A stretch of DNA of 59,478 nt, taken from positions 1 to 59,478 of the IMG/VR virus record IMGVR_UViG_3300031857_000194; one strand, written 5' to 3'. This document shows, piece after piece, positions 4,001-54,035 of the stretch (the first letter of the stretch is position 1; each line of letters starts with the position of its first letter). The stretch is from a virus. A program made the position numbers and the translations under genes. The notes beneath the pieces are model-generated. The model searched no databases, was not told where the DNA came from, and worked only from the letters and a program-made list of their open reading frames with translations.

Positions 4001-4737
4001 CGCTCTTCCATGTAGTCTTGCGCCACAGGCGTAGCGTTTTGCTCCATCATCTGCTCATGCACTTGTTCGATGGCTCTTTTGGCATCTGCTAGGCTGGCGA
4101 ATCCTGTGCCTATTTCTTTTTCATCTACTTTGACCACAAAGCCATCTGTCATGTTGCCACAGATGTCGGCTGTTTTTTCACCGTTGGGTCCAATTGTCAC
4201 CCTATCCACGGGTTTCAATGAGTCTCCACCGCGATTGCTGTCTTTGTTTTTTAAATCGGTGTCAGTCTTCTTTTCTTTTGACACTGTGTCTAAAAAGTCT
4301 TTGAGATCTCGAGCAGAGCCTTTGACCACTATGTCTTCACCTATGGCTGATTCTGCCATTGAGGATTCCGTTTTCTTACGACCTGCACAGTGTGCCTTTT
4401 GACTGAATCCCCGTGGATTGCTGCAGTTGATGGACTTCTTGTATTTCTCACTCCATTTTTCTGTCACAGGTTCTAGAGTTTTTTTCTTATCTAGTTCTTG
4501 AAATAATGTTTCAACCTGCTGATCTAATTCTGCGGCATGATCCTGTTCTATCTGCGACATCTTTCTGGCCAGAGCGGTATCTTCAGCAGAGTCGCCTACC
4601 AACTTGCTGGGGATTTTGCTGGCAGGATCTGTACCGCGCAGGTATCCTACGAACTTGGGGCCGGCACCTTGATTGAGATCACCCTCGGCGATGCGCTGCA
4701 GTCGGGCGGCTATGTCGTAGATGTCCTGATTGCTCAT
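3997..4737 (-). CDS. Hypothetical virion-type protein with a CSNPxGFSxxxxCxGRKK motif
   Basis: 246 residues. It starts MSNQDIYDIAARLQRIAEGD; residues 95-122 contain the two-cysteine basic module with C105 and C117 (INCSNPRGFSQKAHCAGRKK), a module I have seen repeatedly in T4-like phages of aquatic bacteria but whose function is unknown. It could bind metal or DNA. The C-terminal part (about 180-230) holds a small alpha/beta stretch (DGFVVKVDEKEIGTGFASLA followed by a helix DAKRAIEQVHEQM). The start overlaps the stop of the dps-like gene as ATGA, and its stop overlaps the next start the same way, so all three are translationally coupled. Confidence 0.72.
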   Translation of the reverse strand: MSNQDIYDIAARLQRIAEGDLNQGAGPKFVGYLRGTDPASKIPSKLVGDSAEDTALARKMSQIEQDHAAELDQQVETLFQELDKKKTLEPVTEKWSEKYKKSINCSNPRGFSQKAHCAGRKKTESSMAESAIGEDIVVKGSARDLKDFLDTVSKEKKTDTDLKNKDSNRGGDSLKPVDRVTIGPNGEKTADICGNMTDGFVVKVDEKEIGTGFASLADAKRAIEQVHEQMMEQNATPVAQDYMEER

Positions 4738-5174
4738 GCACGAGCTTTCTTGAGAAAGCTACGCAGCATCCAATTGTGCTTGCCGTGTGCGTCCTGGCGC
4801 TCGGCCAAGAAGTTTAGTATGCCTTCTTGATTTTCTGCCTTTGCACTGGCTATGGCTGTGCCGATCAAGGCCAAGAGTTTTTCATTGTCAGTTTTTAGTT
4901 CTTCAAACATGAGTTCTGCTCTGGGAATCTTAGTTTGATCTTGGATAACACTTAGTTCTTGATAACGCATGAGTGATCCTGGTGCGTAGACATCCAACAC
5001 ACGGATATATTCGGCTGCGAGATCAGTGGATTCAAAAACTTCTGTGGCTAGTTTATCAAAGAACTTGTGATACTGACTAAAGTCAGGACCTTCAACATTC
5101 CAATGGAAGTTCTTGGCCTTGAGGTAAAAAGCAAAACTACTAGCTAGTAGTTGTTTGAGATCGTCGGCTAACAT
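4734..5174 (-). CDS. dps: Dps-family ferritin (DNA-protection protein during starvation)
   Basis: 146 residues starting MLADDLKQLLASSFAFYLKA. The Dps inter-subunit ferroxidase ligands are all present at the canonical spacing: H24 (KNFHWNV), H36 (QYHKFFD), D51 and E55 (STDLAAEY), i.e. gaps of 12, 15 and 4 residues as in bacterial Dps. Length is close to the family norm and the protein is one four-helix domain. Dps proteins form 12-mers that oxidise and store iron, limit peroxide damage and often coat DNA; there is a lysine-rich C-terminus (RSFLKKARA) but no long basic N-tail. The ATG chosen overlaps the stop of the upstream leader-bearing gene; longer in-frame starts would run deep into that gene. 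Presence in a virion-protein cluster suggests a late or packaged role rather than a scattered metabolic gene. Confidence 0.9.
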   Translation of the reverse strand: MLADDLKQLLASSFAFYLKAKNFHWNVEGPDFSQYHKFFDKLATEVFESTDLAAEYIRVLDVYAPGSLMRYQELSVIQDQTKIPRAELMFEELKTDNEKLLALIGTAIASAKAENQEGILNFLAERQDAHGKHNWMLRSFLKKARA

Positions 5175-5587
5175 TTGGTATCTTTCTTGGATTCTTGCAT
5201 GGGCTGTATGCCCTGTTCGTGCTGGCTCAGTATGTAGTCCCAAACTGACACCAGATTCATTTTTGCTCCGGCGATTTTTTCCTGCACCCATTCTGGCAAG
5301 TTTTCACCGTCGGCTATGGCATCGTGCAGCCCTTTGACTGCTCTCAGCATGGTATGCAAGTTGCTCTTGGCCATGCCTGACTCGTCGTCATACTCGCCAT
5401 CGTAGTTTTCTTTGATGTTGCGTGGGGTCTTCCGGGCTTTTTTGGGTCTGCTGTTGGCATACTCACGTTTTTCGCCGTAGACGCCTTGACCTATGGGGCC
5501 GCGGCGCTGTGTAGCGCCCAGGGGCATGGCAACTGTGGCAATACCGCCTGCAACGGTGGATTCTTGTATGATTTCTTGTAGTCGCAT
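5168..5587 (-). CDS. Hypothetical protein with capsid-targeting-like leader (MRLQEIIQE|S)
   Basis: 139 residues. The first residues MRLQEIIQES match the leader shared by several genes of the window and resemble the T4 capsid-targeting sequence, with predicted cleavage after E9. The body has a basic segment (SRPKKARKTPRNIKENYDG) and then a helical domain (SNLHTMLRAVKGLHDAIADG, LPEWVQEKIAGAKMNLVSVW). The latter type of short domain (WVQxKIxxAxxxxxxVxDY) is common in T4-like phages, function unknown. A CATAAATA late box (5596-5603) ends 8 bp before the ATG. The stop overlaps the dps start. Confidence 0.72.
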   Translation of the reverse strand: MRLQEIIQESTVAGGIATVAMPLGATQRRGPIGQGVYGEKREYANSRPKKARKTPRNIKENYDGEYDDESGMAKSNLHTMLRAVKGLHDAIADGENLPEWVQEKIAGAKMNLVSVWDYILSQHEQGIQPMQESKKDTKC

Positions 5588-15417: not shown

Positions 15418-17835
15418 TCAATCCAACTGACTGGCCAATTGCTGATACAAAGCCAGTTTTTTATCGGCGCTCATGGCCATCCAACGCTGCATCCAATCAC
15501 TCGTGGGTCTTGTGCCCAAGGCATCTTTGATCAGGTCGCTGATGCTCTGATCCATTTCTTGTTCAGTGGGTCCAGAGGCTTCTGTCACGCTTTGTAATTG
15601 TTGTTGTGTGGCTCGAAGGTTGGGATTATTAGGGTTGGCTGTGTGCCGAACACCGGTGGCAGTACGTTGTGTAGTTCCCCCTGTTGAACTGGCAGTATTG
15701 GGCCCAGTGAGATTTTTTACCATACTGCCAAATCGGCTGGAATCCATTCCGGCCTGTGGCAATGCTGCAGATTTCGATGCCACTTGAGCAGGTGCAGTTC
15801 CAGCCTGTGGCGGTGCTGTAGTTCTCTGTGCTGTGGGAGCAGGTGCAGTTCTCGGTGCAGGTAGTTGCATTTGTTTCCAAACACCGGCCAAGACATTTTT
15901 GTCCACACCTTGCTTGACCAACAAAGCAAAAATCTGATCGCTGTCAGTGGGCGAACCTGCGGCTTTCCATGCTGTTGACAGTTTGTCAGCAGTGATCTTG
16001 GTGGTGATGTTTTGACCCACTTGCGCCACTTTGCCAGCGATGGCTTGACCGGCCTGTGAGGCCTTGCCTTTTAGATAATCCCATACTCCTTCTTCCACAC
16101 GCTGGAACATTTCCCGTATCTGTTGTGGAGTGATGGACTCCGCGGTGGTTTGTGGCCGGCTTGCAACACCAGAACCCGCTGCAGCTCCTTGGCTCAGTGA
16201 TTGCCCGGCCTGCGCCAATCCGTTGATCCATTGTGTTAACCCATCATTGGCGATTTGGTCCGCTCTGGCGTTGCGTGCTATGTCTAAAATCGCAGATCTG
16301 TAATCTGCGGAGTTAATTTCTCTAGAGATAGTTCTCAGTGTGTCATAGCCTCCGGCTTGCCCATCTCTAATCATGCGGAGAGCTTCCTCTATCGCGGATT
16401 TTTCTTCCGGAAACACTATTACATTGAATCCCTTCAGAGTCTGTTTCCATTCGGAACCGGGTCCGGTCAGAGTTTTGGTAGCATGGAATGACACGTCTTC
16501 TAGCCCGGCATCTTTAGGACCAAATGGTATTGAATCTGCTCGCATACCTGACACAAACTGGCCCAGCATCTCAAATGCTTTGCCTGATAGATAGCCCAGT
16601 GCTGCTGTCTTAACGCCCTTGCCCACAGCAGTGGAAAGCTTTTCACCTTTGAGCAATTCAGCGGTGCCACGCAGGATCTGGCCAGCGATGGCGCCTCCAG
16701 CAGGACCAGCACCCAAGGCAGCGATGGTAGTGAGCACACCCACGATGGCTGCTGTCTTGCCAGGATTGGCCTTTGCCCACTCGCCCAACTGCGACACACT
16801 ACGACCCAGTTGAGGAAACTTCTGTGCGATGTTGCCTTTGAGATTTTCAAACTTTTGGTCAAAGGCCTGTACAGGAGCAGTATTTTGTAACCATTTTCCT
16901 ACATTGTCGATTGCTCGGTTTACAGCACCGGCGGCATCCATGCCTTTGCCCACCAAGGTACGGTTGCCACCAGCGTCTGTGGCTGCTTGTTGTGTGGCTG
17001 TAAACAGTTGATTGATCTGTTGTGGATTCAAAGCCACTTCCAGCACAGGCCGGAACTCGTTGTAGATGCCTTCGACGATGCGTCGTTGTTGGACCGTGAG
17101 TCCTTGGCAGGATTCTGTAAGGATCTTGTGGCGGGGTTGTGCAATTTCTGTGACTTTCATCTTGATAATTTTACTTTCCGTTACGCCCATCTGGCGCGGC
17201 CCCACTGTGCCCAGTTTTCGGCCACCGAGGGCCATGACAGACTCGCGCCCGGAGTAATTCATGGTGTGGACCACATTGAAACCTGAGTCGGGCATGGCCC
17301 AGACCTCGATACCGTCTTCGGGGTCTCGAAAGATTTTGACTTTTTCTTTAGCATACTGCACAGCTTCTTGTTTGGTTTTGAACTGACTGGTAAACTTAGC
17401 TTCCGTGACACCTTGCGACATTTTTTGTTTAAGTGTTTGTATCTTTTGTTGATAAAATTTGCATTTCTCGTCGTCACCCGCACGATTGGCTGCTAAAGCA
17501 AGTTCTTCAAACTTTGATATTTTCTTTCTAATATCAGAGGAGCCTTCTGACAGATCATCGTCGTCAAATGGCAAGTACCAGAACCAGTTTTCAAATCCGC
17601 CAGGATTGGTATCATAGTCCATGTGTGCGGCGTTGCGAGCAGCATTCAACATATTTTTGAATATTGCCACAGCGTTATTTTCCACTGCCACTGCTTTCAA
17701 CGCTTGATACAGTTGTTCAGCACCAGCAGCATCTTTGTGTCGTTGGATCTTGGGAGCCAGTCGGTGATACACATCAGCAAATTCGCTGTGTAGTTCTCCC
17801 ATGCGGCTTTCGACTAATATTTCTGTGACTTTCAT
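15418..17835 (-). CDS. 805-residue modular protein with leader and internal protease-like sites
   Basis: The N-terminus MKVTEILVESRM is leader-like. Near residue 226 a second leader-like start appears (KMKVTEIAQPRHKILTES), so the gene looks like two fused leader-proteins. Sites of the type hydrophobic-x-E|A/S/G occur at about 145 (GVTE|A), 220 (VTE|S), 241 (LTE|S), 255 (IVE|G), 582 (VEE|G) and 752 (VTE|A), spaced between domains as if cut by a prohead protease. Residues 360-430 are hydrophobic and Gly/Ala-rich (two membrane-like helices); 615-660 holds a helical KITADKLSTAWKAAGSPTDS module; 660-750 is a Pro/Ala/Thr linker. No enzyme motif. A membrane-active, injected internal protein is a plausible inference. 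Confidence 0.72.
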   Translation of the reverse strand: MKVTEILVESRMGELHSEFADVYHRLAPKIQRHKDAAGAEQLYQALKAVAVENNAVAIFKNMLNAARNAAHMDYDTNPGGFENWFWYLPFDDDDLSEGSSDIRKKISKFEELALAANRAGDDEKCKFYQQKIQTLKQKMSQGVTEAKFTSQFKTKQEAVQYAKEKVKIFRDPEDGIEVWAMPDSGFNVVHTMNYSGRESVMALGGRKLGTVGPRQMGVTESKIIKMKVTEIAQPRHKILTESCQGLTVQQRRIVEGIYNEFRPVLEVALNPQQINQLFTATQQAATDAGGNRTLVGKGMDAAGAVNRAIDNVGKWLQNTAPVQAFDQKFENLKGNIAQKFPQLGRSVSQLGEWAKANPGKTAAIVGVLTTIAALGAGPAGGAIAGQILRGTAELLKGEKLSTAVGKGVKTAALGYLSGKAFEMLGQFVSGMRADSIPFGPKDAGLEDVSFHATKTLTGPGSEWKQTLKGFNVIVFPEEKSAIEEALRMIRDGQAGGYDTLRTISREINSADYRSAILDIARNARADQIANDGLTQWINGLAQAGQSLSQGAAAGSGVASRPQTTAESITPQQIREMFQRVEEGVWDYLKGKASQAGQAIAGKVAQVGQNITTKITADKLSTAWKAAGSPTDSDQIFALLVKQGVDKNVLAGVWKQMQLPAPRTAPAPTAQRTTAPPQAGTAPAQVASKSAALPQAGMDSSRFGSMVKNLTGPNTASSTGGTTQRTATGVRHTANPNNPNLRATQQQLQSVTEASGPTEQEMDQSISDLIKDALGTRPTSDWMQRWMAMSADKKLALYQQLASQLD

Positions 17836-18461: not shown

Positions 18462-21400
18462 TTATCTCATCTCCGGTACGACTTCTAATTCTACACCTAC
18501 TAGATCCGGTCTGTTGCGCCCCATCCATCCGGCGGCGAATCTATTGGCGTCGGTCTGGCTGTTGCCTATGCCACCAAATGTATGCACCACTTCATTGGTG
18601 TTGGCATTGCGTATCTGCCACCGACCAGTGAACTCGCCTTGTGATCGTTGTGCTGCATACTGGGCGATCAATCGGTCTGCTTGTTGATTTACATTAGGCT
18701 GGGCCTGCACGGGTTCGGCTTCGATGCTGGTGATCCTGCGGCGCTGTGCTTGCAGTGCTGAACGCACCGAATCCATGGCAGCATCAGCATTAGGGGCATC
18801 AACACTGAGGCTGTCTGTGACTTGTTCACCATTGCGAGTTTCACTCCAACTCACGCGATAGCGTTGTGTGTCCGCCGCTCTCAAGCGTGTTTGTAAATCC
18901 TGCTGATCCTGCCGATTATCTTTTTGCTGTTGCTGATACTGTCGCACTTCTGCGGCTGAGGCTGGTTCGGCTAGGAAACTGTCGGGATCATTTCGGCGGA
19001 GTTCGAGCCAATGTTTGTCCTGCCGTTCAGCTTCGGCCTTGGCCAGTGCAGTATTTTCAGCGGCCACCAGCAAGGTCCGACCGCTGTCTGTGTCAGTGAT
19101 GCGCCAGATGGTGGGACGATCCACGATCTTTTTTGCCACCTGTGCTCTACGGCTCAGTGGCTTTTCAGGTTCCACTTCGGATTTCTCCCGCGTGGTGAAA
19201 TCAAATCCTTGTCCGCTATATTTGACCAAGGCAGTTTCGTTGGCCGAGTCCAGGTTGTAATCTTTTATGACATCAATGACTTCACCAGTGTCAGTGTTGA
19301 TCACTTCGTATTCTTTAGCAGCCGCAAGGCTGCGCGGGGGTGGCACTTCCTTGGCCAGAACCTGCCGAGCCCACGACTTCTTTAGTTCTTCGGGTGTGAT
19401 CATACCTGCGCTGTATCGGGCAAACAATTCTAGTGCATCCTTGGCACCTTCTGTTTCAACATCGGCTTTGATTTTGGCGCCTTTGTCGGATCGGGAGTAC
19501 TGGGTTTCACGGTATCCGCTCAACAGTTTGTACAGTTTCTTGCCATACTCTTGGCGCTCCAGTTCGGGTCTGCTGGCTATGTACATGGCTCTAGCAAAAC
19601 GCAGCATGGTATCTTCCAGTGCGCCCACTTCTTCGTCGCCTTTGGCCAGATAATCGCCGCCCGGTGAGCGAAACTCGATGTAGCCATCTTTGATATGTGC
19701 CGAAGTGTATTTGTCACGGCCCACCCCATCTCTCACCATGTCGGCAGCCAACTCTATGAGATTCTTTTTCATGAGATCCATGGCAGCGGCTGTTTTCTCT
19801 GCGCCAGACATTTTTGCTGGCGAACTATCCCAGCCTGTGACTTCCTGCTCCTGCATTTGATTTCTACGGCTGCGCTGCACATCCTGCAGTTTGCCCAGAG
19901 CCGAACGTGCGTAACTGTTGGCTGAACGTCCAAAACGTTCCAGCACATACTGATCACCCAGGAACATTATGAGTTTGACATAGTCCACTGCGCCACCCTT
20001 GAAAGGCACGCTCACGCCCATGTGTAAACCAGTTGACGAGTTGGTGTAGGCATCGCCGTCGCTGTTGGCCCAGTCTATAACAGTCTGCAGAGATTCCAGC
20101 GCCTGCTTGAGTGGCATGGGTGGTGATACCACTTCCAGTCCTGTTTCGTCGCTGGGATCGTCGGGATCTAGGCTGCCATCAGGCTCGATGATCCAAAGCC
20201 CGGGCTTTCTTGACACGCTGTGATAGCCCGTGCTGCCACGCACTTGTGCATCACCGCCCAGGGCTTGGCGTAAACTGTCAGCGATGTCGTCCACAGTGCG
20301 ATCGCCACCGCTGGTTTCACCGCCACGCCAGTAGGGCCAGTCTAAACCAAACTCACTGCCAACGTCACTCATGTATCGATATTCTTGTTCCAACCAGTCA
20401 CTTTCATCGTAGTCGCTGCTGTCTCTGGTGGTGTCAAAATAATCGTCTCTGGCTTGATCAAAACGATCATCTTCGGTATCCACACTGGTTTCCACATCTG
20501 CCCGATACAGTTCTCTGGCCAGGGCTTCAATCTTTTCTGATTGTTCCTCGGACTCTTCACTGGTGTCTATGCCCAGTTCTTCCGCAGCACGCTCTCTGTA
20601 GTTGTCCTGCTCCTCGGGCCATACATTCTCATCATAGTAGTCACGCACGATCTGATCTGCGTTTTGGTTCCAGCCTTCGGCGATCTGTTCATCTCGCCAT
20701 TCGTAGAAAGATTCCCGCATTTCTTGCTGCAATCTATTAGCAGACGATCTGCCGATGCCGTTGTCGCCGCCTTGGAAAAAATCCACCACCCCATCTATGC
20801 TGTAGGCACGCTCGTCCATGTCATAGTCAGCTTCGTAGTCTTCTTCCTCGCCTTCGCCGGCATCACGGAAGATGAGTTCGGCTTCAAAGCCTGCTTGTAT
20901 GCCCTCGGCTTCGTCGGAATCGGCCCACTTCTTGAGTTCACCTGGGCTCATCTTGACTTCCAAGAGATCTTCACTGTCCTGTGATTCTGCTGTGATGCCA
21001 CGTGCCCAATCGTCGGGTGTGACGCCGTATTTGGCCACCCACTGATCGTGCAACTTTTGAGGTGTGATATCATATCGTCGGGATATGGTTTGCATGACGT
21101 GATCTATGTTGTCATAGTTGGGATTTTCCAACTGTTTCACACCTTTGGCCAGATCATCCAGGTACTTTTCACGCTGATAACTTTCTGCTATGTCTGTGAA
21201 TATTTTGTCGTGCTGTCGACCGTAATCAACCATGACACGTCCGGCCACGGTGTTGGCATCGGCTTCCACTCTAGCCAACTCTTGGCTGTTCATGTCGTGA
21301 TGCGCTGTGCCATCAATAAACTGTTTCACGTGCTGCAGTTCATGTGTGTAGGTACGCAACACATCTGCTAGATATCTGTCGCCAACGTAAACATAAACTT

Positions 21401-22676
21401 CACTGTCATCGGCTGTGTTCTTCCACTGCGTGACACCAAATGTGTTGTGATCTCGGGCCCAGGATCTATCGCTGGTAAAGGTGACTGGTGGTACTTGTTC
21501 GGGCTTCAGCGCCAATGATCTTAATATATCGGGTATGGCACGATTGATCTCCGAACTCAACCGGCTGTCCACGCCACGGAATGTGACACGGCCTTCGGTC
21601 AATTTACCGTTGGTTTTAGCCTTAGGAGGCACGCCAGCACGAGAGATTTTGAATCCCAACTGCTGAGCTGCTTTTTTCAAACTGTCGGGTCGGACGTCTA
21701 CTGTGAGTGCGTTGCTGAATCTGGGATCATTTCGTTCTGCTTGGGAAGGAATATAACCCGAAGCTGCTTCCTTCAAAGGCTCGTCCCCGAATCCCCAACG
21801 AAACTCCGTCATGATTTCCATGCCTGTCACACGCTTGATCAAATCCCATACGTCTCTTTGCTGGCCTTGCTTGATCAGTTGGCCCAGCAACTTTTTCTGC
21901 TCGGCAGTGGCCTTGCGATAAAACTCGTTCAGTTCCATGATGCCAATATTGCCGGCATAGGCAGCTTCTTCTATGCTGAGTTCTTCGCTCTTGGCCTGAT
22001 CACGTGCCTGCATCAATTGTCGGATCAATCCACGATTGCGCAGTAGTTTGAACACTAGATTTTCTGCAGAAAATTCCCCGGCACGATCTAGACCGGCCTT
22101 TCTCATGCGTTTGATTTTGTCCAGCAGCAGGGACAATCGATCATATTCAGGATTTTTCACAGCCTGTTCTATGGCGTGGCCCAGTTTTTTGTATTTGGAC
22201 TGCACTGTGTTGTCGTCTATGGGCACTCGCTGCCGGCGTGGCATTTTCTGCCACTGATCACGAGAAAGGGAATAGACACCAGCACTGTGATGCTGATCAG
22301 CTGCGCCCTGCACATACAATTCCACATCAGAATCTTTTACCTTGATATTATATCGATCATTGTACAGGCTTTTTTTGGCGTCAAACAATTCACGATACAC
22401 TTCGTCGTTGTCCAATCGCTTCATGTCAATGATCAGGTGCAGATCAATGTCGGAATAGGGTGTGTAGGTATAGCCTGCGTTGCTGCCACTGACGGTGATG
22501 TCATCTATCTGTGAGGAATTTAATCCAAGATATTCTCTAAAATCATCGGCTATGCGCAGCAGGGCTCGGCGCACATCGGGTTTGAGTTGATCCCCGTCAA
22601 ACAATTGGGGATTGAGATCTTGATGCAGCTGCACAGCATCCTTGAGACTGTACTGTTCTAATTCCGTGATATCCAT
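18462..22676 (-). CDS. 1404-residue multi-enzyme protein: nucleotidyltransferase, HExxH metalloprotease, amidoligase-like
   Basis: Domain 1 (about 45-125): a polymerase-beta-type nucleotidyltransferase with the GS...SDIDLHL signature (residues 63-81, metal aspartates D76 and D78). Domain 2 (about 370-500): a zinc metalloprotease with HELQH at 445-449 and a downstream ELARVEADANT helix likely to give the third ligand. Domain 3 (about 575-1060): amidoligase-like, GCS/glutamine-synthetase fold, with AGFEAELIF near 595-603, GLEVVSPPMP near 847, TGLHMGVSV near 882 and later EFRSPGGDYL. The C-terminus has several short repeats of the WRIxNxxTxE type ending RPDLVGVELEVVPEMR. Acidic linker 605-770. 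It lies among leader-bearing proteins; a CTAAATA late box is at 22684-22690. Substrates are unknown. Confidence 0.78.
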   Translation of the reverse strand: MDITELEQYSLKDAVQLHQDLNPQLFDGDQLKPDVRRALLRIADDFREYLGLNSSQIDDITVSGSNAGYTYTPYSDIDLHLIIDMKRLDNDEVYRELFDAKKSLYNDRYNIKVKDSDVELYVQGAADQHHSAGVYSLSRDQWQKMPRRQRVPIDDNTVQSKYKKLGHAIEQAVKNPEYDRLSLLLDKIKRMRKAGLDRAGEFSAENLVFKLLRNRGLIRQLMQARDQAKSEELSIEEAAYAGNIGIMELNEFYRKATAEQKKLLGQLIKQGQQRDVWDLIKRVTGMEIMTEFRWGFGDEPLKEAASGYIPSQAERNDPRFSNALTVDVRPDSLKKAAQQLGFKISRAGVPPKAKTNGKLTEGRVTFRGVDSRLSSEINRAIPDILRSLALKPEQVPPVTFTSDRSWARDHNTFGVTQWKNTADDSEVYVYVGDRYLADVLRTYTHELQHVKQFIDGTAHHDMNSQELARVEADANTVAGRVMVDYGRQHDKIFTDIAESYQREKYLDDLAKGVKQLENPNYDNIDHVMQTISRRYDITPQKLHDQWVAKYGVTPDDWARGITAESQDSEDLLEVKMSPGELKKWADSDEAEGIQAGFEAELIFRDAGEGEEEDYEADYDMDERAYSIDGVVDFFQGGDNGIGRSSANRLQQEMRESFYEWRDEQIAEGWNQNADQIVRDYYDENVWPEEQDNYRERAAEELGIDTSEESEEQSEKIEALARELYRADVETSVDTEDDRFDQARDDYFDTTRDSSDYDESDWLEQEYRYMSDVGSEFGLDWPYWRGGETSGGDRTVDDIADSLRQALGGDAQVRGSTGYHSVSRKPGLWIIEPDGSLDPDDPSDETGLEVVSPPMPLKQALESLQTVIDWANSDGDAYTNSSTGLHMGVSVPFKGGAVDYVKLIMFLGDQYVLERFGRSANSYARSALGKLQDVQRSRRNQMQEQEVTGWDSSPAKMSGAEKTAAAMDLMKKNLIELAADMVRDGVGRDKYTSAHIKDGYIEFRSPGGDYLAKGDEEVGALEDTMLRFARAMYIASRPELERQEYGKKLYKLLSGYRETQYSRSDKGAKIKADVETEGAKDALELFARYSAGMITPEELKKSWARQVLAKEVPPPRSLAAAKEYEVINTDTGEVIDVIKDYNLDSANETALVKYSGQGFDFTTREKSEVEPEKPLSRRAQVAKKIVDRPTIWRITDTDSGRTLLVAAENTALAKAEAERQDKHWLELRRNDPDSFLAEPASAAEVRQYQQQQKDNRQDQQDLQTRLRAADTQRYRVSWSETRNGEQVTDSLSVDAPNADAAMDSVRSALQAQRRRITSIEAEPVQAQPNVNQQADRLIAQYAAQRSQGEFTGRWQIRNANTNEVVHTFGGIGNSQTDANRFAAGWMGRNRPDLVGVELEVVPEMR

Positions 22677-24325: not shown

Positions 24326-24970
24326 TTATTTATTGTTCACACCCATGGCCGCAGCCACGGTTTCAAAATAATCCCGACCTGCCACTCGGAGATTGGGATC
24401 TACCCCAGTGGCACGGAAAAATCCTTCGCGATCGCCTGCAGTGACCATGGCACGAACATCGGTACTGCGTAGATTGGGATCACCCGCAATGCCCTCAGCA
24501 TCCTGTGCTTCAGGCGTGCCACCATCTGAGAATGAGTCAAAATTGTAAACTGCCCGTAATGGCTGGCCTTTGGTATTCACCTGCTTGCCATTTGTCACCA
24601 TTGGAAAACGCATGGCTTCTTCGCCGGCGCCGTACATGACCACAGCATTCTTGTAGCCTTTTTTATTCAAATATTCGGCAGCAAAATCACTCATGGGTAC
24701 AGCAGGATCCATGACAAAATGATCACGATCCTGTGGCAATATTGCCCGCCACCAGGCCAATTTTTCAGCACCTGTCAAAGGATTTTTTTCAGGATCACTA
24801 TCGCGAGGACTAATAAACAGATACCAGTCAGCATTCAATTCACCGGCCTTTCTTTTCAAGGCATTGATCAGTCGCTGATGTCCAGCATTGGGCGGATTAA
24901 ATCTACCAAATGCGTATACCACTGTGTCTTTGTTGCCACGTGTGTTTTCAAACAATTCAAATAATAACAT
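24326..24970 (-). CDS. HxGH-superfamily nucleotidyltransferase (cytidylyl-/NMN adenylyl-transferase-like)
   Basis: 214 residues. The N-terminal Rossmann-type core has GRFNPPNAGH at 22-31, the (T/H)xGH signature of nucleotidyl- (alpha-phosphodiesterase) transferases, followed by LINALKRKAG. Near residue 165-175 a STDVRAMV segment corresponds to the ISSTxIR motif that binds the triphosphate. The first nine residues MLLFELFEN resemble the capsid-targeting-like leader. It overlaps by one base the upstream KxDG-motif gene, and the two-gene arrangement is one I associate with T4-like phages. Substrate unknown: NMN, glycerol phosphate or a sugar phosphate are all possible. Confidence 0.82.
   Translation of the reverse strand: MLLFELFENTRGNKDTVVYAFGRFNPPNAGHQRLINALKRKAGELNADWYLFISPRDSDPEKNPLTGAEKLAWWRAILPQDRDHFVMDPAVPMSDFAAEYLNKKGYKNAVVMYGAGEEAMRFPMVTNGKQVNTKGQPLRAVYNFDSFSDGGTPEAQDAEGIAGDPNLRSTDVRAMVTAGDREGFFRATGVDPNLRVAGRDYFETVAAAMGVNNK
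24327..24334 (-). promoter_or_regulatory. Late-like box AATAAATA
   Basis: Five bases before the start of the RMF-like gene at 24321. Confidence 0.42.
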
Positions 24971-27930: not shown

Positions 27931-28631
27931 CGTGGCTCAATACGATATGTCTTTCTTAGCAGTCCAGGGAATGACATTTCAAACAGCATCTGTATATGCG
28001 GGTTGCTGGTATCAATGAACATATTGCTGGTCATCCAGCGGCGCCGCTGCCCCGTCATACGCTGTTGTAGACTAGGGCCCAGCCTGATTTCTTCTGAGTA
28101 ATTTTCGCAGAATTTTATCAGTTTTTCCACCACGGGCTCTTCCAGCCAGCGTTCTCGAAAATAGTGCCTTAATGTGTGCTCGGGATCTTTGAGTTGGATC
28201 ACGTCGGGTTCATGTGTGAGTTCAGCAGTGACCAGTTTCACGTGTTGTAGCTGTTGCCAGAACTTCTGTTCCTGCAGCCGGTGATAATCATTGGTGTAGA
28301 TCTGCAGCCAGTTGTCGTACAATACCACTTTGTCCTGATCATTGGATTCCAACCAGTCCAGGCATTCGTGCAAGGCCAGGACGTCATCAGCAGAAAAACT
28401 CTTGCCGGGACGAGTACGATTACCACGCCAGGACCCACCATAATTTATGTTACGCTTGAGTATCTGATCTCTGAATTCTATGTTTTCATCCAGGGTGCTG
28501 TGATCCCTCACACGGCCCAGTCTGGGCGACCTCAGCACTGCTGCTTCAAAAAGATAAGCAGAGATACTGTAGCGATAGCGGTTGTAAAACAGTGAACCGC
28601 GGGGTTGGGATTTAGACTCTAATAAGTCCAT
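27927..28631 (-). CDS. Conserved hypothetical protein
   Basis: 234 residues, start MDLLESKSQPRGSLFYNRYR. Mixed alpha/beta with many aromatic and charged residues (WLESNDQDKVVLYDNWLQIY, LRHYFRERWLEEPVVEKLI). No metal or nucleotide motif. Its first 20 bases overlap the end of the clp gene, so it belongs to the dnaJ-def-clp transcription unit although structural genes follow. I do not recognise the function. Confidence 0.72.
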   Translation of the reverse strand: MDLLESKSQPRGSLFYNRYRYSISAYLFEAAVLRSPRLGRVRDHSTLDENIEFRDQILKRNINYGGSWRGNRTRPGKSFSADDVLALHECLDWLESNDQDKVVLYDNWLQIYTNDYHRLQEQKFWQQLQHVKLVTAELTHEPDVIQLKDPEHTLRHYFRERWLEEPVVEKLIKFCENYSEEIRLGPSLQQRMTGQRRRWMTSNMFIDTSNPHIQMLFEMSFPGLLRKTYRIEPR

Positions 28632-30879
28632 TGGTATCCACAGATCCTATCAAGTTGCTGGTAATGTCAAAGGTCACAGAATCTCCAACATAATCGGCCA
28701 TGATTTCACAGTTCATGAGATCATCAAACAGGATCTTGCGGCTAAGCGGCACACGAACTAGTTCATCGATTTTGCGGCTCAAGGGTCTAGCACCCATTTT
28801 GGCATCATAGCCTTTGTCTGCCAGGTGATCGATCAAGGCTTCCGAGAAGTTGATGCGAATGTTTTTGGGAGCCATGGCCTGTTGCAGTTGCTTGAGGAAT
28901 TTCAGCACGATACGCTTGATGGCCAGGGTATCCAGTTTCTGGAATTTACATATGGCATCAATACGATTGCGTATCTCAGGTTTGAAATAGTCTTTGAGTG
29001 CGCGATCTTCTTCGCCAGACTTGGCCAAGGCCACTCCAAAGCCAATGGCGTTGTTGTCATTGTCTCGAGCGCCCAGGTTGCTGGTCATGATGATGATGGT
29101 ATTTTTACAAGACACTTTCTTGCCATTGCTGCCAGTCACAGTGCCTTCGTCCAGCATCTGTAGCAAGATGTTGGACACATCAGGGTGCGCTTTTTCAATC
29201 TCATCAAACAAGATCACTGAATAGGGACTCTTGCTAAGATCATTGATGAGTTTGCCGCCGCCCAGGCTGTGATCTTCATAGCCCACATATCCTGGAGGCG
29301 CTCCAATTAGTGTTGACAGATTGTGCTTTTCTTGGAATTCGCTCATGTCATAGCGCAACAGTCGCATATCCAGTGCGTCACTGAGTGCCTTGGCCAGTTC
29401 GGTTTTGCCTGTGCCCGTGGGTCCAAGGAACAGGAACGATGCCAAGGGCCTGGTATCAACATTGATGCCAGCAAAAGAAACAAATATGCGATCGATCACG
29501 GGATCTATCACTTGATCCTGACCAAACAGCCGATCTTTCACAGTTTCAGCCAAACGCTTGATCTTGTCTGTGGTCTTGCTGGCCAGTTTGTCTCGCGGTA
29601 TGTCTGTAAATTTAGCGCAGGCAGTGATGATGTCTTCACGCAAGACCACAGCACCTTCAGCATCATTCACACGATAACCTGCACAGGCAGCATCCAACAG
29701 GTCAATGCTTTTGTCGGGATTTTTACGATCAGTGATATATCGATCACTCAGTTCCACTGCGGCCTTCACAGCATCTCTGTCGATCTGCACTGAGTGGAAT
29801 GTTTCCAGCCTGGGCTGCAGGCCTGTCAAGATATTTTCCGTATGCTCTGTGCTGGGTTCGTCTATGGCCACTTTGTAGAATCTACGCATGAGTGCGCGAT
29901 CCTTTTCAAATGACTCATAGTATTCTTCCCAAGTGGTACAAGCGATCACCTTCAAGTTGCCTTTGGTTATGGCAGGCTTGATCATGTTGGCCAGGTCCAT
30001 GCTGGAGTTGTTGGCAGCGCCTGCGCCTTTCATGGCGTGTGCTTCATCAATGAACAATATGCAGTTGTCTTTGGCTGCCAAGGCACTGAGCACGGCCTTG
30101 ACTTTTTCTTCAAAGTCTCCGCGATATTTGCTGCCTGCCAACACATCCGCAATGCTCATAGACCACACTTCGTGATTCTGCACAAACTTGGGCACTTCGC
30201 CTGCGATCACGGCCTGCGCCAGGCCTTCCACTATGGCAGTTTTGCCCACACCAGGATCGCCTACCAGCAACACGTTGCTTTTGAAACGCTTGGCCAGCAC
30301 AGTGATCATTTCTTTGAGTTCTGTGGCGCGACCTATCACGGGTTCATACTTGCCGGCTTCGGCCAGTGCAGTCATGTTGATGCAGTACTCTTCCAGTATT
30401 TCTGTGGCCTGCTTTCGGCCCAGTTTGGGTTCGCGCTGTTTGTGATGATGTCCTTGCCAGTACTCTACAAATTCTTGTTTGATCAGTCCATACTTGGAGA
30501 AAAAGTAGTGTGCGTGGCAGTTGTTTTCGCTCATGATGGACAGATACAGATCAATGGGTATCAGGAACCTGCGATTGCTGAACACCACCTGTGTCACAGC
30601 ACGATTGATCATGCGCTCGAGACCGTTGGTCTTTTTGGGCACAAACTCTTCGGGATCAACCGATTCCAACTCTAGACTTTTCATTGACTGTAGATAGGCT
30701 TCGATGTCGGCATCCAGGCTTTCAATGTCCACGCCAAAGTCCCGCGTTTGATTACGGAATTCTTGATTGCGTATCAGTGCCAACGCCACGTGTTCTAGCG
30801 TGACATATTCGTGACGCATATCAATGGCCAAGTCTCGCGCCATGTCGATGATGCTTTCAACTTCGGGATTATACTGCAT
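28612..30879 (-). CDS. clpA: ClpA/ClpC-type AAA+ unfoldase with IGF loop
   Basis: 755 residues, close to E. coli ClpA length. Clp_N-like helical domain (1-140), then AAA-1 with Walker A GDPGVGKT (207-214) and Walker B CILFIDEAHA (273-282), and AAA-2 with Walker A GPTGTGKT (486-493), Walker B VILFDEIEKAH (555-565), sensor TSNLG, and a C-terminal small domain GYDAKMGARPLSRKI. No long ClpB middle coiled coil is inserted after AAA-1, so this is a ClpA/C type. Between AAA-2 strands the sequence DNNAIGFGVAL (IGF at 612-614) sits where ClpA has its IGL ClpP-docking loop. It likely unfolds host or phage proteins, possibly feeding host ClpP. Operon with def and dnaJ. Confidence 0.92.
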   Translation of the reverse strand: MQYNPEVESIIDMARDLAIDMRHEYVTLEHVALALIRNQEFRNQTRDFGVDIESLDADIEAYLQSMKSLELESVDPEEFVPKKTNGLERMINRAVTQVVFSNRRFLIPIDLYLSIMSENNCHAHYFFSKYGLIKQEFVEYWQGHHHKQREPKLGRKQATEILEEYCINMTALAEAGKYEPVIGRATELKEMITVLAKRFKSNVLLVGDPGVGKTAIVEGLAQAVIAGEVPKFVQNHEVWSMSIADVLAGSKYRGDFEEKVKAVLSALAAKDNCILFIDEAHAMKGAGAANNSSMDLANMIKPAITKGNLKVIACTTWEEYYESFEKDRALMRRFYKVAIDEPSTEHTENILTGLQPRLETFHSVQIDRDAVKAAVELSDRYITDRKNPDKSIDLLDAACAGYRVNDAEGAVVLREDIITACAKFTDIPRDKLASKTTDKIKRLAETVKDRLFGQDQVIDPVIDRIFVSFAGINVDTRPLASFLFLGPTGTGKTELAKALSDALDMRLLRYDMSEFQEKHNLSTLIGAPPGYVGYEDHSLGGGKLINDLSKSPYSVILFDEIEKAHPDVSNILLQMLDEGTVTGSNGKKVSCKNTIIIMTSNLGARDNDNNAIGFGVALAKSGEEDRALKDYFKPEIRNRIDAICKFQKLDTLAIKRIVLKFLKQLQQAMAPKNIRINFSEALIDHLADKGYDAKMGARPLSRKIDELVRVPLSRKILFDDLMNCEIMADYVGDSVTFDITSNLIGSVDTNGLIRV

Positions 30880-31306
30880 GGTATGCCTTTCTGTCGTGCA
30901 TGGTTATGCCGTCTAAATGATCAAGTTCGTGCTGGAAACAACGAGATGCCAAGCCCAGTAATTCTTCTTGTACAATGTCTCCAGGGGCTGTGCGATATCT
31001 GACCTTTATTGTATTGGGTCTGCTTATTGTACACTGGTCTCCGGGAAAACTCAAGCAACCTTCGTCGAAATTGGCAAAATCGTCACTGGATTCCATAATT
31101 TGGGGATTGAAACAGGCCCAGGATCTCACACCAATTTTCATCACAAACACACGCTGGCCTATACCCACCTGCGGAGCTGCCAGACCTATGCCATTCTGGG
31201 CGATCATGAATTCCAAAAGGTTATTGGCCAGTCGTTGATTTTTCCAGGGATAGACAAAATCCACGGGCCTGGCAATCTTGTACAATACTCGACGTGTGAG
31301 TTTCAT
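30869..31306 (-). CDS. def: Peptide deformylase
   Basis: 145 residues with the three catalytic motifs in order: GIGLAAPQ (39-46), EGCLSFPG (82-89, metal Cys) and QHELDH (125-130, two metal His plus catalytic Glu). It removes the formyl group from new N-terminal methionines. Length is slightly short and lacks a long C-terminal helix, as in other phage and organelle deformylases. Its end overlaps the clp start by 11 bp. A GTAAATA late-type box is at 31312-31318 in addition to the sigma70 promoter upstream of dnaJ. Deformylases are known auxiliary genes in marine phages, thought to speed maturation of abundant proteins. Confidence 0.94.
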   Translation of the reverse strand: MKLTRRVLYKIARPVDFVYPWKNQRLANNLLEFMIAQNGIGLAAPQVGIGQRVFVMKIGVRSWACFNPQIMESSDDFANFDEGCLSFPGDQCTISRPNTIKVRYRTAPGDIVQEELLGLASRCFQHELDHLDGITMHDRKAYHAV

Positions 31307-31311
31307 GAAAT

Positions 31312-31318
31312 TATTTAC
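31312..31318 (-). promoter_or_regulatory. Late-like box GTAAATA
   Basis: Five bases before the deformylase ATG at 31306, at the end of the dnaJ-like gene. Confidence 0.4.
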
Positions 31319-32073
31319 TGTTTTGTCCGCTTGATAGCATCCACGACATCTTGGGGTATGTTTCTGGGCAGGTGTGTTTCAATATTCACTATAATGTCCC
31401 CAGCAGGTCCGTTGGGATTTTTAAGTGCTTGACCACGCAGTCGCATCTGCGATCCGGGTCTGGTTCTTTCGGGCACTGAGACTGACAGCACTGTGTCCTG
31501 CAGCGTGGGTATCTCTAGTTCACAGCCCAGGATCAAATCCCAAAAATCCAAACTGCGTGTGATCACCAGGTTCAATCCCTGGCGCTGGAACTCGGCGTGA
31601 CGATCCACGATGTAGGTTATCACAAGATCATGATTGTTGGGTCCGAGATTGGGATAGCGTACTTCCTGTCCTGTTTCAATGCCCAGAGGTATGTCTATTT
31701 CGATCAGTCGCCCGGAAATATTAAAGTTACGCTTGCCCCCTGTTGCCAGATCCTTAAGGTTGATATGTGCCTGTACTCGGGCCTGGGGCCTGACCTGATG
31801 ACGGAACACGTGCCCGAAGATATCACCGAAATGATGTGCGAATTCTGGTGGTATGCCTGACTGCTGGAAATGGAATTGGCCTGGCGGGTTATCGTACTGG
31901 CTTCGCTTGGCATCATCAGATAGTGTAGCATATGCTTCCTGTATTTCCTGAAACTGTTTGGTATCACCGCCGCGATCGGGGTGATGCTTAGAGGCCAATC
32001 GGCGGTAAGCAGATTTGATATCATCTGCTGAGGCCGATCGCTCTACTCCTAAAATAGCATAATAGTCTTTCAC
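31315..32073 (-). CDS. DnaJ-like co-chaperone (CbpA type, no zinc finger)
   Basis: 252 residues. The J-domain (1-65, [20 protein letters not shown]) has HPD at 31-33, needed to stimulate DnaK. After a short linker the two C-terminal beta domains follow ([38 protein letters not shown]). The Cys-rich zinc finger and long Gly/Phe region of DnaJ are missing, so it is closer to CbpA. The protein ends [10 protein letters not shown]. The gene is first in the dnaJ-def-clp unit, 7 bp from the sigma70 -10 region plus short leader. It likely recruits host DnaK for phage assembly or replication. Confidence 0.93.
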
Positions 32074-32079
32074 ACTATT

Positions 32080-32108
32080 ATTTTAGCATGAATGACTGAG
32101 TATGTCAA
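32080..32108 (-). promoter_or_regulatory. Sigma70 promoter for dnaJ-def-clp
   Basis: TTGACA (32103-32108) and TAAAAT (32080-32085) with a 17-bp spacer on the minus strand. The -35 is consensus and the -10 has one mismatch. It lies 6 bp before the dnaJ-like gene start (32073), overlapping the end of the holin gene; transcription by host RNA polymerase is expected, i.e. early in infection. Confidence 0.78.
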
Positions 32109-32407
32109 ACTTCTTCTTTTTTGCCTGCTTCTATTGCCGCAACCTTTTCCTGGCCGCGTGTGTAAGCACTGATACCAAGTATGGCACCAAAAGCGATGTG
32201 TATAAATCCGCCGCCCTGCAGGCTCAAGGGAGCCCACTGACGGAATGCATCATTGGCTGCTTGTACTTCCCAAAACTGCACGATAGTAAACAGTACGGGA
32301 AACAGTATAAAATCTGCTATGTTGATCATCATGTAAGTTACAGCCATCATTGGACGCCATTTGCTGGTCATCCAATCCTGGGCTTTTTTCTCTGCTGCTG
32401 TGGCCAT
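32105..32407 (-). CDS. Putative holin
   Basis: 100 residues from ATG at 32407; an AAGGAG ribosome site lies 5-6 nt upstream, so the longer frame is rejected. After a polar N-tail (MATAAEKKAQDWMTSK) come two hydrophobic spans (MAVTYMMINIADFILFPVLF, about 20-42, and FIHIAFGAILGISAY, about 67-82) separated by a WAPLSLQGGG turn, then a charged tail YTRGQEKVAAIEAGKKEEV. This WRPM...LQGGG..H.A.GA.LG..A..RGQEK arrangement is typical of a phage holin family in T4-like phages. It would make pores for lysis with the M15 endolysin at 45206. The dnaJ sigma70 promoter overlaps its 3' end. Confidence 0.8.
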   Translation of the reverse strand: MATAAEKKAQDWMTSKWRPMMAVTYMMINIADFILFPVLFTIVQFWEVQAANDAFRQWAPLSLQGGGFIHIAFGAILGISAYTRGQEKVAAIEAGKKEEV

Positions 32408-32505
32408 TGCTTGCTCCTTGTTGTAATAATTTGTACTTATTTCTCGCAAGTATTTTGGTCAGTGTGCAGTTTTTACACTAAGTATCATTTTATAGGGATA
32501 TTATC

Positions 32506-42741: not shown

Positions 42742-42764
42742 AAAAACGCTGGATATCAGTGTTT
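42742..42764 (-). terminator. Terminator after pstS
   Basis: A stem AAACACTG/CAGCGTTT (one G-T pair) with a short loop is followed by TTTTTG on the minus strand. The stop codon of pstS lies within the stem. Confidence 0.65.
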
Positions 42765-43763: not shown

Positions 43764-43829
43764 CACTTGAATTCTCCTTTGTGTTGTGCTCCTGCACAAG
43801 ACTATTTACAATAAACTGCGCGGTTTATT

Positions 43830-44434: not shown

Positions 44435-44925
44435 TGTGGTGCCCGATAGTTGGGATTGGCTATGGCAGGACATTCTTTGTTGATCTCCGCTGAATTCTTG
44501 GCTGCTAATTCTTGCTGGGTATGTGCCGCGCCCGATGCCAGTTCAAGACAGCGCATAGCATTGCGTGTGCCGCGATTCACCAGGCGTTCTACCAGTTCTG
44601 GTCGTTCGCGAGCCAACTGGCCAAAGTCTCGGGGATTGCCGCGTGCGTCCTGGCTGAATTTTTTTGTCAGCGTGTCCACTTCACCGCGATAGCGTTCTGC
44701 TAGATTCTGCAGATCACGATTGGTCTGCTGAATGGCTGCAATGTCTTCAACCATCTGCCGTAACAAATCTTTTTGTTCTTGGATGCCTTGTTCTAGCCTA
44801 CGTGCGTTTTCTTGACTTTGCACCAAGTCGGCCTTGACGTTGGACACATACCAAAGTCCTGCGGCTATGATAACAGCAATGATCAGTGCGACTATGGATC
44901 GGATTATGGCGCCGACGGGCAGCAT
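44431..44925 (-). CDS. Probable inner-membrane spanin (Rz-like)
   Basis: 164 residues: an N-terminal membrane helix (IVALIIAVIIAAGLWYV, about 11-28), then a long periplasmic coiled coil (NARRLEQGIQEQKDLLRQMV ... NRDLQNLAERYRGEVDTL), and a C-terminal domain with two Cys (MRCLELASGA, NKECPAIAN). This is the Rz i-spanin layout, paired with the downstream lipoprotein and upstream of the endolysin cluster. Confidence 0.76.
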   Translation of the reverse strand: MLPVGAIIRSIVALIIAVIIAAGLWYVSNVKADLVQSQENARRLEQGIQEQKDLLRQMVEDIAAIQQTNRDLQNLAERYRGEVDTLTKKFSQDARGNPRDFGQLARERPELVERLVNRGTRNAMRCLELASGAAHTQQELAAKNSAEINKECPAIANPNYRAPQ

Positions 44926-45209
44926 CAGGGCCTCTCGTAACTGGCTTGGGCACGTGACATGGCTGTGCGAGCAGCATCTGCTTGCTCACGGCCTTGTGCT
45001 TCGGCATCCCGTGTGCTGCCTCCGGGTTCTCCTGCGATGTTTTTGATGCGTTCTATTTTGGCTGGCTCTTCGCCGTAGGTATCAATAAAATATTGACCTA
45101 GGCCTTCGTCGTACTGCCAGTCAATGACTTTGACTGTGCCGTCTCGCATGGTCACACGATATCTAGCAGGTCTAAACATACCTTCCGAGATGATCTCGTA
45201 GAGTTTCAT
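44925..45209 (-). CDS. Small protein with capsid-targeting-like leader (MKLYEIISE|G)
   Basis: 94 residues. Leader MKLYEIISEG with predicted cleavage after E9. The body MFRPARYRVTMRDGTVKVIDW ... YGEEPAKIERIKNI is a short beta/alpha domain, then a helix rich in Ala/Arg/Gln (AEAQGREQADAARTAMSRAQ). Flanked by spanin and endolysin genes with one-base and ATGA overlaps. Function unknown; possibly packaged. Confidence 0.7.
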   Translation of the reverse strand: MKLYEIISEGMFRPARYRVTMRDGTVKVIDWQYDEGLGQYFIDTYGEEPAKIERIKNIAGEPGGSTRDAEAQGREQADAARTAMSRAQASYERP

Positions 45210-48321: not shown

Positions 48322-49248
48322 TTAAGTGTTCTTATCCTGATTTCTTTGCCAGGGTAAAGTGGGTTTTTTACTGATATCAGGATTGAAGTTTTGTATTTTT
48401 GGTGCTGTGTTTTTCTTGAGATCTCCCTGTACATATCTCTGTGCTGTGCTGAGATTGCGATTCACTAGATCTGTGGTGGCCAATTCTTGGCTGTAATTTT
48501 TAGCCATCTTGCCGGTGAGGAAATAATTGTAATCTCCTTCGGTATACAACATAATGTTGCCATCTACACCAGGCACCGTACCAGCAGGCACGATCTCACC
48601 ATCTCGTTTGTATGCTCCGCTGCTTTTGATCTTACCATACATTTCTGCAGGCATGGGATTAAAAATCATTTTGTCATATACTATGACGTTTTTGCTTTTG
48701 ACCCATTGATCAGGCATATCTACTGCTATGCTTTTCAGTGGCTGATGCACAGCATAATCCTGGCTGGGACCAAATACATCTTTGGCCATGCCATATCGAT
48801 CTACATCCAAGGCCTGTGCTGAACCTGCGCCCAGGGCTAGACCGCCGGCCACTGCAGCCGCTGCCATCTTTTCTTTCCAACCTTCTCCTAAGTCTGCGGA
48901 TTCCTTGGTTGAAACATTTTTGGCTGCACCGCTGCGTTCGGCATCAGGATCTTGTCTGCGTTTGCGTGCCGCGGCTGATGCACGACCTTTTTTGCCCAGG
49001 GCATGTGCCTTGGCCTGTGGCAAGCACTTGGGCTTGCCTTCACCTTTGCTGCCTCTAGCACAGTCTCCGCGTATCTTGCCATCGGGTCCAAACCGCACCC
49101 ACTTTTCTTTAAACCATTTACGCAGATCTTCTTCTAGTTCTTGCTCTGAAACAGGCACACAGTTAGGCACCTGGCGATCTCCTTTTTTCTTCATGCCCTG
49201 TTGCTGATAACCAGTCCAGCAGGCTTCAAGAATTTCTTGATATCTCAT
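48322..49248 (-). CDS. Leader-bearing protein with two phage Cys modules
   Basis: 308 residues from ATG at 49248, where the upstream gene's stop overlaps (ATGA). The leader is MRYQEILEAC. Module 1: CWTGYQQQGMKKKGDRQVPN followed by C (about 10-30). Module 2: WVRFGPDGKIRGDCARG ... KPKCLPQAKAHALGKKGRAS, then a basic RKRRQDPDAERSGAAKNV. Both recur in T4-like phages without known function. Residues about 125-150 (MAAAAVAGGLALGAGSAQAL) look like an internal signal peptide, so the C-terminal half could be released into the periplasm after cleavage at LGE|G-type sites. Likely injected. Confidence 0.74.
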   Translation of the reverse strand: MRYQEILEACWTGYQQQGMKKKGDRQVPNCVPVSEQELEEDLRKWFKEKWVRFGPDGKIRGDCARGSKGEGKPKCLPQAKAHALGKKGRASAAARKRRQDPDAERSGAAKNVSTKESADLGEGWKEKMAAAAVAGGLALGAGSAQALDVDRYGMAKDVFGPSQDYAVHQPLKSIAVDMPDQWVKSKNVIVYDKMIFNPMPAEMYGKIKSSGAYKRDGEIVPAGTVPGVDGNIMLYTEGDYNYFLTGKMAKNYSQELATTDLVNRNLSTAQRYVQGDLKKNTAPKIQNFNPDISKKPTLPWQRNQDKNT

Positions 49249-49409
49249 TTGTTTTTCTTTCCACCAGTGCCCCAGTTGGCAGCACCTTTTTTGCGACACT
49301 GTACCAAGGCACCTGATGCATAGGCCGAAGGCCATACCTTGTAACGGCTGCGCACTTTATTGTAGCAGGCGTCTTTTTTGGCTTCCGATACAAATTCATG
49401 AGCACGCAT
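49245..49409 (-). CDS. Small leader-bearing Cys protein (54 residues)
   Basis: Reads MRAHEFVSEAKKDACYNKVR then SRYKVWPSAYASGALVQCRK and ends WGTGGKKNK. The leader MRAHEFVSE|A is nearly identical to that of the gene at 14106-14312. The WPSAYASGALVQCRK module is common in large phages. A ribosome site AGGAGC is upstream, and TAATG and ATGA overlaps link it to both neighbours. Confidence 0.75.
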   Translation of the reverse strand: MRAHEFVSEAKKDACYNKVRSRYKVWPSAYASGALVQCRKKGAANWGTGGKKNK

Positions 49410-50854: not shown

Positions 50855-50913
50855 AAGTTTCCTTTGGCAATATCTAGTACTTTAGCACTCAGTTGGGTCA
50901 GTGTCAATGACAA
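50851..50913 (-). CDS. Possible 20-codon ORF before the clamp loader
   Basis: A frame from TTG at 50913 ends AKVLDIAKGNL and its stop overlaps the clamp-loader ATG (TTATGAT). It fills the only gap between the two genes. No ribosome site is obvious, so it may be an untranslated leftover. Confidence 0.25.
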   Translation of the reverse strand: MSLTLTQLSAKVLDIAKGNL

Positions 50914-50917
50914 TTGG

Positions 50918-52461: not shown

Positions 52462-52472
52462 TGTGTTCTCCT

Positions 52473-53801: not shown

Positions 53802-53812
53802 GGTCAGTGGCT

Positions 53813-54004: not shown

Positions 54005-54035
54005 ATGTAATTCTCCTTTACAGTATTAGTTAGCA

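Follow-up and report, generated by a model that had tools for sequence, protein, structure and literature searches.

The 59-kb virus record IMGVR_UViG_3300031857_000194 (59,478 nucleotides, here called the window) carries on its minus strand an open reading frame (ORF) of 805 amino acids (aa), P0001 (17835..15418), which probably encodes a capsid-targeted cargo polyprotein of a T4-like phage: a string of modules behind an N-terminal leader, cut by the prohead protease. The plus-strand reading of 15418-17835 is full of stops. A separate contig (L002) encodes a protein 100% identical to P0001 across all 805 residues, and because this copy comes from another contig, P0001 is no single-record assembly artefact.

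In T4 the cut follows L/I-x-E, glutamate (Glu) being the P1 residue; PMC9026906 sets out this rule and what the capsid-targeting sequence (CTS) does. We defined a strict site as hxE↓[GAS], where h is V, I, L, M, F or A and the arrow marks the predicted cut, and find it in P0001 at residues 9, 97, 145, 220, 241, 255, 484, 582 and 752. The first-pass annotation of this DNA had listed 145, 220, 241, 255, 582 and 752, all of which are present at those positions; its list lacked 9, 97 and 484, and also TTAE566↓S, the Glu of which is conserved in 16 of 20 sequences. The hydrophobic-x-E motif of S77 protease substrates occurs at plausible places in the chain. Leader-like MKVTEI words had been claimed at residues 1 and 226, and both were located; codons 1-6 and the MKVTEI at 226 share an identical 17 nt, ATGAAAGTCACAGAAAT. 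The opening MKVTEILVE↓S has the form of a CTS-type leader, about 10 residues ending in hxE↓A/S/G, and the T4 record gives the ipIII start as MKTYQEFIAE↓A. The parts of P0001, with the evidence for each, are as follows.

15418..17835, minus strand: P0001, predicted cassette polyprotein, 805 aa (ORF; identical copy in L002)
17809..17835, minus strand: N-terminal capsid-targeting-like leader MKVTEILVE↓S, residues 1-9 (leader-pattern enrichment; likeness to T4 ipIII)
17545..17808, minus strand: module A, residues 10-97, end LSE97↓G (23 distinct contexts; helical model)
17401..17544, minus strand: module M2, residues 98-145, end GVTE145↓A (33 loci besides the near-copy; 24 contexts)
17176..17400, minus strand: module M3, residues 146-220, end GVTE220↓S (relative only in the near-copy)
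17113..17175, minus strand: second, internal leader, residues 221-241, MKVTEI at 226, ILTE241↓S (same 17 nt; starts of free-standing B genes)
16090..17112, minus strand: N-terminal part of module B, residues 242-582, hydrophobic and Gly/Ala-rich near 360-430, end VEE582↓G (43 of 65 loci; conservation of 582; hydropathy)
15580..16089, minus strand: C-terminal part of module B, residues 583-752, WKxAGSPTDS domain, end VTE752↓A (alignments A2 and A4)
15421..15579, minus strand: module D, residues 753-805 (separate 90-aa ORF in L054; DNA homology from the Glu752 codon)

P0001 is modular, in that its parts are found apart. Among the 65 related loci found with P0001 as query, L002 is the sole full copy. 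Module B (about 223-690, or part of it) stands without A in 43 of the 65 loci, module A (residues 3-106, or part) lies inside unrelated proteins in 20, and module D (743-805) is alone in one, as a 90-aa gene. Loci L031 and L036, for which the match starts at 161 in one search and at 223 in another, were counted as B, and L041 and L044, where a long alignment at 27-28% identity extends beyond A, as A; the mixed alignments A1 and A2 misplaced A fragments and were used for B only, with A3 and A4 as replacements. The B relatives are free-standing genes with their own leaders (for example, MKVKHLIEQQLKHGRGILTE↓S in L009), starting at the position of the second leader of P0001. A 48-residue M2 query (98-145) reached 34 loci including the near-copy of the window, with at most 81% identity outside that near-copy, and for M3 no relative was found in viral contigs beyond it.

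The comparison with split homologues suggested in the first-pass annotation therefore finds B and D as separate genes and A and M2 in many unrelated proteins; that the parts occur separately across the 65 loci supports its claim of a polyprotein-like fusion, and products occurring among relatives as separate genes or in other orders are what is seen with viral polyproteins. Of its wording, “fusion of leader-proteins,” the fusion stands and the leader for each piece does not: most modules have no leader of their own, so that “leader cassettes” fits better. Conservation of the sites it listed is mixed and in part tells against its reading. Site 582 is hxE↓G in all 7 B sequences having this segment (in the remaining 16 of 23 it is missing or lies beyond the sequence end), which bears the claim out, and it holds in part for two others: site 241 is strict in 6 of the 11 close relatives aligned there (8 of 11 with a one-residue shift), and 7 of these 11 have hxE↓G at site 255. 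At site 220, relatives for comparison are lacking.

Strict sites are concentrated at the joints between modules. In 23 contexts of module A, a strict site lies at the upstream joint in 11 (2.3 expected) and at the downstream joint in 18 (3.0 expected); in 24 contexts of M2 the figures are 17 upstream (2.5 expected) and 21 downstream (3.4 expected), with the expectation taken from the same proteins and the window counting as one context in each of A and M2. The upstream misses of A are mostly hxE↓T, and both E↓T and E↓N are also found at the gp23 precursor site of some of these phages. Module order varies, being A-M2 in P0001 and others and M2-A in L096, L098, L099 and L100, where the two are linked by GVAE↓A; proteins bearing A are often rich in GVAEG-like separators.

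Recombination edges fall at sites of the same kind. All ORFs of the loci were compared, a breakpoint being the end, inside both ORFs, of DNA similarity of at least 75% over at least 100 nt. Of 1333 breakpoints, 196 have the motif hxE↓[GASTN] no more than 3 residues away, against 74.4 expected (2.63x); the controls hxD, hxQ, hxK, hxR, hxA and hxT gave 0.59-0.93x, and polar-xE 1.00x. Breakpoints are not independent, so we collapsed them to 275 module-end families, each represented once, after which the count is 33.2 against 15.4 expected (2.15x; control motifs 0.63-1.26x). A noisier test on protein-level edges gave 261 of 1228 against 154.4 expected (1.69x; controls 0.62-1.48x).

Such an exchange can be seen in the closest relative, G007 (169.5 kb, the contig behind L054), which shares long syntenic blocks with the window (88-96% DNA identity). 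At the P0001 locus, homology is lost after the two opening codons (ATGAAA) and picks up again at the GAA codon encoding Glu752, the codons there being GAAGCC in the window and GAAGGC in G007; between the breaks G007 encodes another leader protein, some 350 residues long, that has a GVSE↓G joint of its own. Module D of G007 is made from the separate 90-aa ORF, in which it follows MAE↓G, and cuts at Glu752 in the window and at MAE↓G in G007 would yield an identical product of 53 residues. A second gene reads MKLYEIISE↓GMFRPARY... in the window; its G007 counterpart has MKLNEIVGG... and then a module, about 120 residues long, that ends VAE↓SMFRPARY..., and homology returns with the Glu codon, from its first base on. 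A third gene (49335..48322) has an extra C-terminal module in the window after ..TKE↓SADLGE↓G and ends after ..TKE in G007; this joint has Thr at P3, not a hydrophobic residue. The blocks also break in two long regions, 42108-34419 and 14125-5601, which are not gene-internal joints of this sort.

Relatives encode a predicted protease for such sites, and the same motif lies in its expected substrates. Profile searches with Peptidase_S77 (T4 gp21, Pfam) were positive for 5 records in a set of 14 and for 2 in a set of 15, or 7 of 27 distinct ones; S77 is present in all 6 records matching gp23 (of 22), and one further record has S77 without gp23. The window and G007 are both without a gp23 match and so look like fragments lacking the head locus. 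The gp22 scaffold has 10-11 sites in all 5 loci first examined (2.9-4.3 expected) and 9 and 12 in two more. The gp21-type protease and the gp23 precursor also carry the motif; in gp23 the site lies just ahead of the conserved start of the capsid protein and is mostly YL[AS]E↓[AS], with YLTE↓T or YL[KR]E↓N in the remaining cases. Over the whole of G004 (331 kb, 390 ORFs) the motif is near background (415 versus 386 expected), with gp22 first by excess; control motifs are about as near expectation, except polar-xE (342 versus 443.5). A portal search gave no match in 9 of 9 records and none in the controls either, and so carries no information. One separator 18-mer occurs in 29 IMG/VR stretches, mostly in frame in separator-rich ORFs, with at least two out-of-frame chance matches; G020 (261 kb) and G021 (209 kb), the large records behind L147 and L149 reached through it, gave no S77 or gp23 match; they are fragments, or else stem from phages that use another head protease.

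Among 1721 distinct ATG starts in the loci, 65 fit a leader pattern based on the leaders of the window, versus 1.0 expected from shuffled N-termini, starts being distinct as 13-residue words and related genes not otherwise collapsed. Virion proteins of the Synechococcus phage S-CREM2 have been determined by mass spectrometry (Table 3 of PMC10665884), and several resemble products of the window. ORF154, a virion cytidylyltransferase starting MKNFSSFLTE↓A, is related to window 24326-24970, and a cytidylyltransferase is reported from S-SM1 virions also (PMC3037559); residues 8-237 of ORF156, a 237-aa virion protein, align with 11-236 of a 1404-aa neighbour of P0001; and the virion protein ORF160 is of the phrog_727 cassette type, the family of window 48322-49335. 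The S-CREM2 data show that such proteins enter virions; cleavage is a separate matter. In a comparison of 202 coding sequences, including 44 of the 52 published virion proteins and leaving aside 50,001-56,999 and 153,000-174,876, a T4-derived leader pattern fits 4 of the 44 whose products were detected and none of the 158 others (Fisher p = 0.002, with patterns post hoc); the stricter pattern from our loci had no match in S-CREM2.

From these observations we infer cleavage of P0001, retention in the head, injection and a host role for each piece. The N-terminal leader, equivalent to the T4 CTS, would bring the chain into the prohead core, where an S77 (gp21-type) protease would cut after Glu in hydrophobic-x-Glu↓Gly/Ala/Ser, removing leaders and freeing A, M2, M3, D and B, the last as one piece or two, inside the head; retained pieces would be injected along with the DNA at infection. 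The predicted pieces are A (10.0 kDa, pI 5.0), M2 (5.4 kDa, pI 9.3), M3 (8.4 kDa, pI 9.1), B 242-582 (36.0 kDa, pI 8.9, with a hydrophobic stretch), B 583-752 (17.5 kDa, pI 10.4) and D (6.0 kDa, pI 4.5). Modules would be inserted, lost or swapped at joints, and since each joint would itself be a cut site, we propose that such exchange leaves the other mature products unchanged.

The hydrophobic B piece would be a candidate for membrane passage. The membrane-like character given to 360-430 in the first-pass annotation is real and weak: the maximal 19-residue Kyte-Doolittle mean is 1.64, at 362-380, and the peak lies in a hydrophobic Gly/Ala-rich stretch in all 23 aligned B sequences (range 1.49-2.08). 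The B alignment gave weak matches to a tape-measure PHROG in 2 of 23 sequences and to DUF3040 in 11 of 23, and PHROG and Pfam profile searches of P0001 itself gave no match. A structure model of A-M2 (mean pLDDT 74.5), in which module A is helical, has its lowest confidence at 76-78 and 92-98, the latter adjoining site 97; a Foldseek search with it returned nothing at E <= 0.001. The B model is poor (mean pLDDT 52.9).

Several results weigh against a cargo polyprotein cut by the prohead protease. The S77 protease was found neither in the window nor in G007. The number of sites in P0001, 9 versus 4.5 expected, is reached by 3 of 100 shuffles; the excess is modest, so the case rests on site position. 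Site 255 may be false, and site 484, where the motif is present in 3 of 21 sequences, is probably not a real site. At breakpoints, hxE before other residues is also enriched (1.86x; 1.26x after family collapse). The leader patterns for S-CREM2 were chosen after inspecting its N-termini, and tblastn searches of 50,697 phage records (cultured phages) with P0001 and with a B relative from L066 gave no match.

If P0001 were instead an ordinary mosaic multidomain protein, the joints would be uncut linkers, and the hxE words would reflect linker composition or recombination footprints. General shuffling of phage protein fragments is documented (PMC10684548), and the VAEG joints are conserved as DNA too: among the V-[AST]-E-[GAS] joints of loci reached by protein search alone, 16 of 30 Ala codons are GCG, against a share of about 9% in the same ORFs, 16 of 23 Gly codons are GGC, against about one third, and GTGGCGGAAGGC is the commonest joint word, in 7 of 47 different contexts. 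Given the GCG excess and this recurring word, V-A-E-G joints may double as short recombination homologies; the joint at 220 in P0001 (GTAACGGAAAGT) is without the word. However, joints differ in DNA and in residues (VTEA, VTES, LSEG, VEEG), so a pure DNA repeat is insufficient; the breakpoint excess requires both Glu at P1 and a hydrophobic P3, the alternatives staying at about 1x or less; and the same motif fills gp22, while gp21 and the gp23 precursor have it where it would be expected. We consider the mosaic explanation improbable.

Removal of the N-terminal (possibly also the second) leader only, the remainder being injected as one large protein, is unlikely as well, if the least so of the alternatives. 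Precedents can be found in the T4 internal proteins, which lose a leader of about 10 residues (PMC9026906), and in the SPN3US vRNAP beta subunit, functional with a long N-terminal region kept (PMC5694885); against this, the internal sites 97, 145, 582 and 752 are those at conserved or shuffled joints, and in L054 a 90-aa ORF supplies module D. The same four sites would be left unexplained by two genes in one frame, in which an extra translation start at Met226 yields free B without any protease. Codons 1 and 226 do share their 17 nt and B relatives start there, but no well-spaced ribosome site is visible before Met226, where GGAAAG lies about 14 nt upstream, unlike AAGGAA directly before Met1; we regard this as very improbable.

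As a cargo polyprotein, P0001 finds its nearest likeness in T4 IPI-IPIII and Alt, head-located and injected proteins with a CTS of about 10 residues likewise ending in hxE↓A/S/G. The bodies of Ip1-3 are unrelated except for the leader (PMC12373910). T4 internal proteins are made one small protein per gene, whereas P0001 has several modules behind one leader in one chain. T4 gp22 and other gp21 substrates of the prohead core are similar in having many sites of the same motif in one protein, but gp22 is chopped for removal, whereas the P0001 sites lie at joints of conserved modules. Inner head proteins of phiKZ and SPN3US have long propeptides and undergo extensive Glu-specific cutting by a gp21 relative (PMC9026906, PMC10052503, PMC5694885); the passages covered in those papers describe one mature protein per precursor and no shuffled multi-product chains. 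Polyvalent proteins (Iyer et al., 2017; PMC5512222) have 2-15 domains per chain, are mosaic and are transferred with the DNA, and P1 DarA and DdrB are processed; they differ in having large enzymatic domains, and the processing of DdrB is attributed to a metallopeptidase within the protein itself instead of hxE joints. P0001, with no Pfam or PHROG match, shows none of the effector domains recognised in them, such as MPTase, ADP-ribosyltransferase or methylase-helicase. Small modules of sister cassettes are held by phrog_727, phrog_3477, phrog_23735, phrog_10346 and Pfam DUF5872, none of which matches P0001. In its sequence features P0001 agrees with T4 internal proteins and gp21 substrates. 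The novel element would be the chaining of several conserved, shuffled modules behind one leader, which is undescribed for T4, phiKZ, SPN3US, P1 and polyvalent proteins in the passages covered; a search of full-text literature, with subscription papers and preprints outside its scope, found no description of multi-product cassettes cut by a prohead protease.

Four further genes of the window are of related type.

48322..49335, minus strand: second cassette gene, likely start MRYQEILE↓ACWTGYQQQGMKKKG..., with an extra C-terminal module (module absent in G007; phrog_727)
44925..45209, minus strand: leader protein MKLYEIISE↓GMFRPARY... (module of about 120 residues inserted in G007)
18462..22676, minus strand: 1404-aa multi-module protein upstream of P0001, joint LSIEE237↓A (alignment with S-CREM2 ORF156)
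5168..5587, minus strand: leader protein MRLQEIIQE↓S... with an EYDDE module (module common to the L032 cassette)

A module related to the EYDDE module occurs in Synechococcus phages. The 1404-aa protein begins like a nucleotidyltransferase (phrog_36119) and contains an amidoligase domain (PF12224); its pieces are separate in L104, L118, L136 and L089, the first piece being the S-CREM2 virion protein. The N-terminus of S-CREM2 ORF160 (L179 25343-26236) matches phrog_696, a major head protein family, over 54 residues (whole-protein E 4.8e-10), and a cassette module may be common to ORF160 and a capsid-protein prodomain. Cassette-type genes of cultured cyanophages recur at one late-gene position, flanked by the small and the large terminase gene (S-RIM8, L154 5773-7548; S-SCSM2R, L155 3137-5311; S-CREM2 ORF136-137). 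Adjoining leader-protein genes in the window is a ferritin-like gene (4734-5291, minus strand; PF00210, E 6e-22), the product of which is presumably Dps-like. Regions 28612-33583 and 42756-43799 encode a Clp-type ATPase (phrog_4871), peptide deformylase, DnaJ, a fatty acid desaturase and a phosphate-transport subunit (phrog_5385).

Beyond P0001, we lean slightly towards a general cargo-cassette system in T4-like environmental phages, in which one leader would deliver a string of unrelated small proteins, the protease would separate them, and cleavage-site DNA would double as the in-frame recombination joint for trading cargo. Head proteases of tailed phages are known for leader trimming and scaffold clearance. 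If the proposal is true, one short leader would carry many injected proteins, and cargo could be exchanged without redesign of the signal. Many “hypothetical” phage proteins, such as those of phrog_727 and the GVAEG-rich ORFs, would become candidates for injected host-takeover or anti-defence factors, with exact module boundaries at which to define the separate proteins and a sequence rule for finding more of them.

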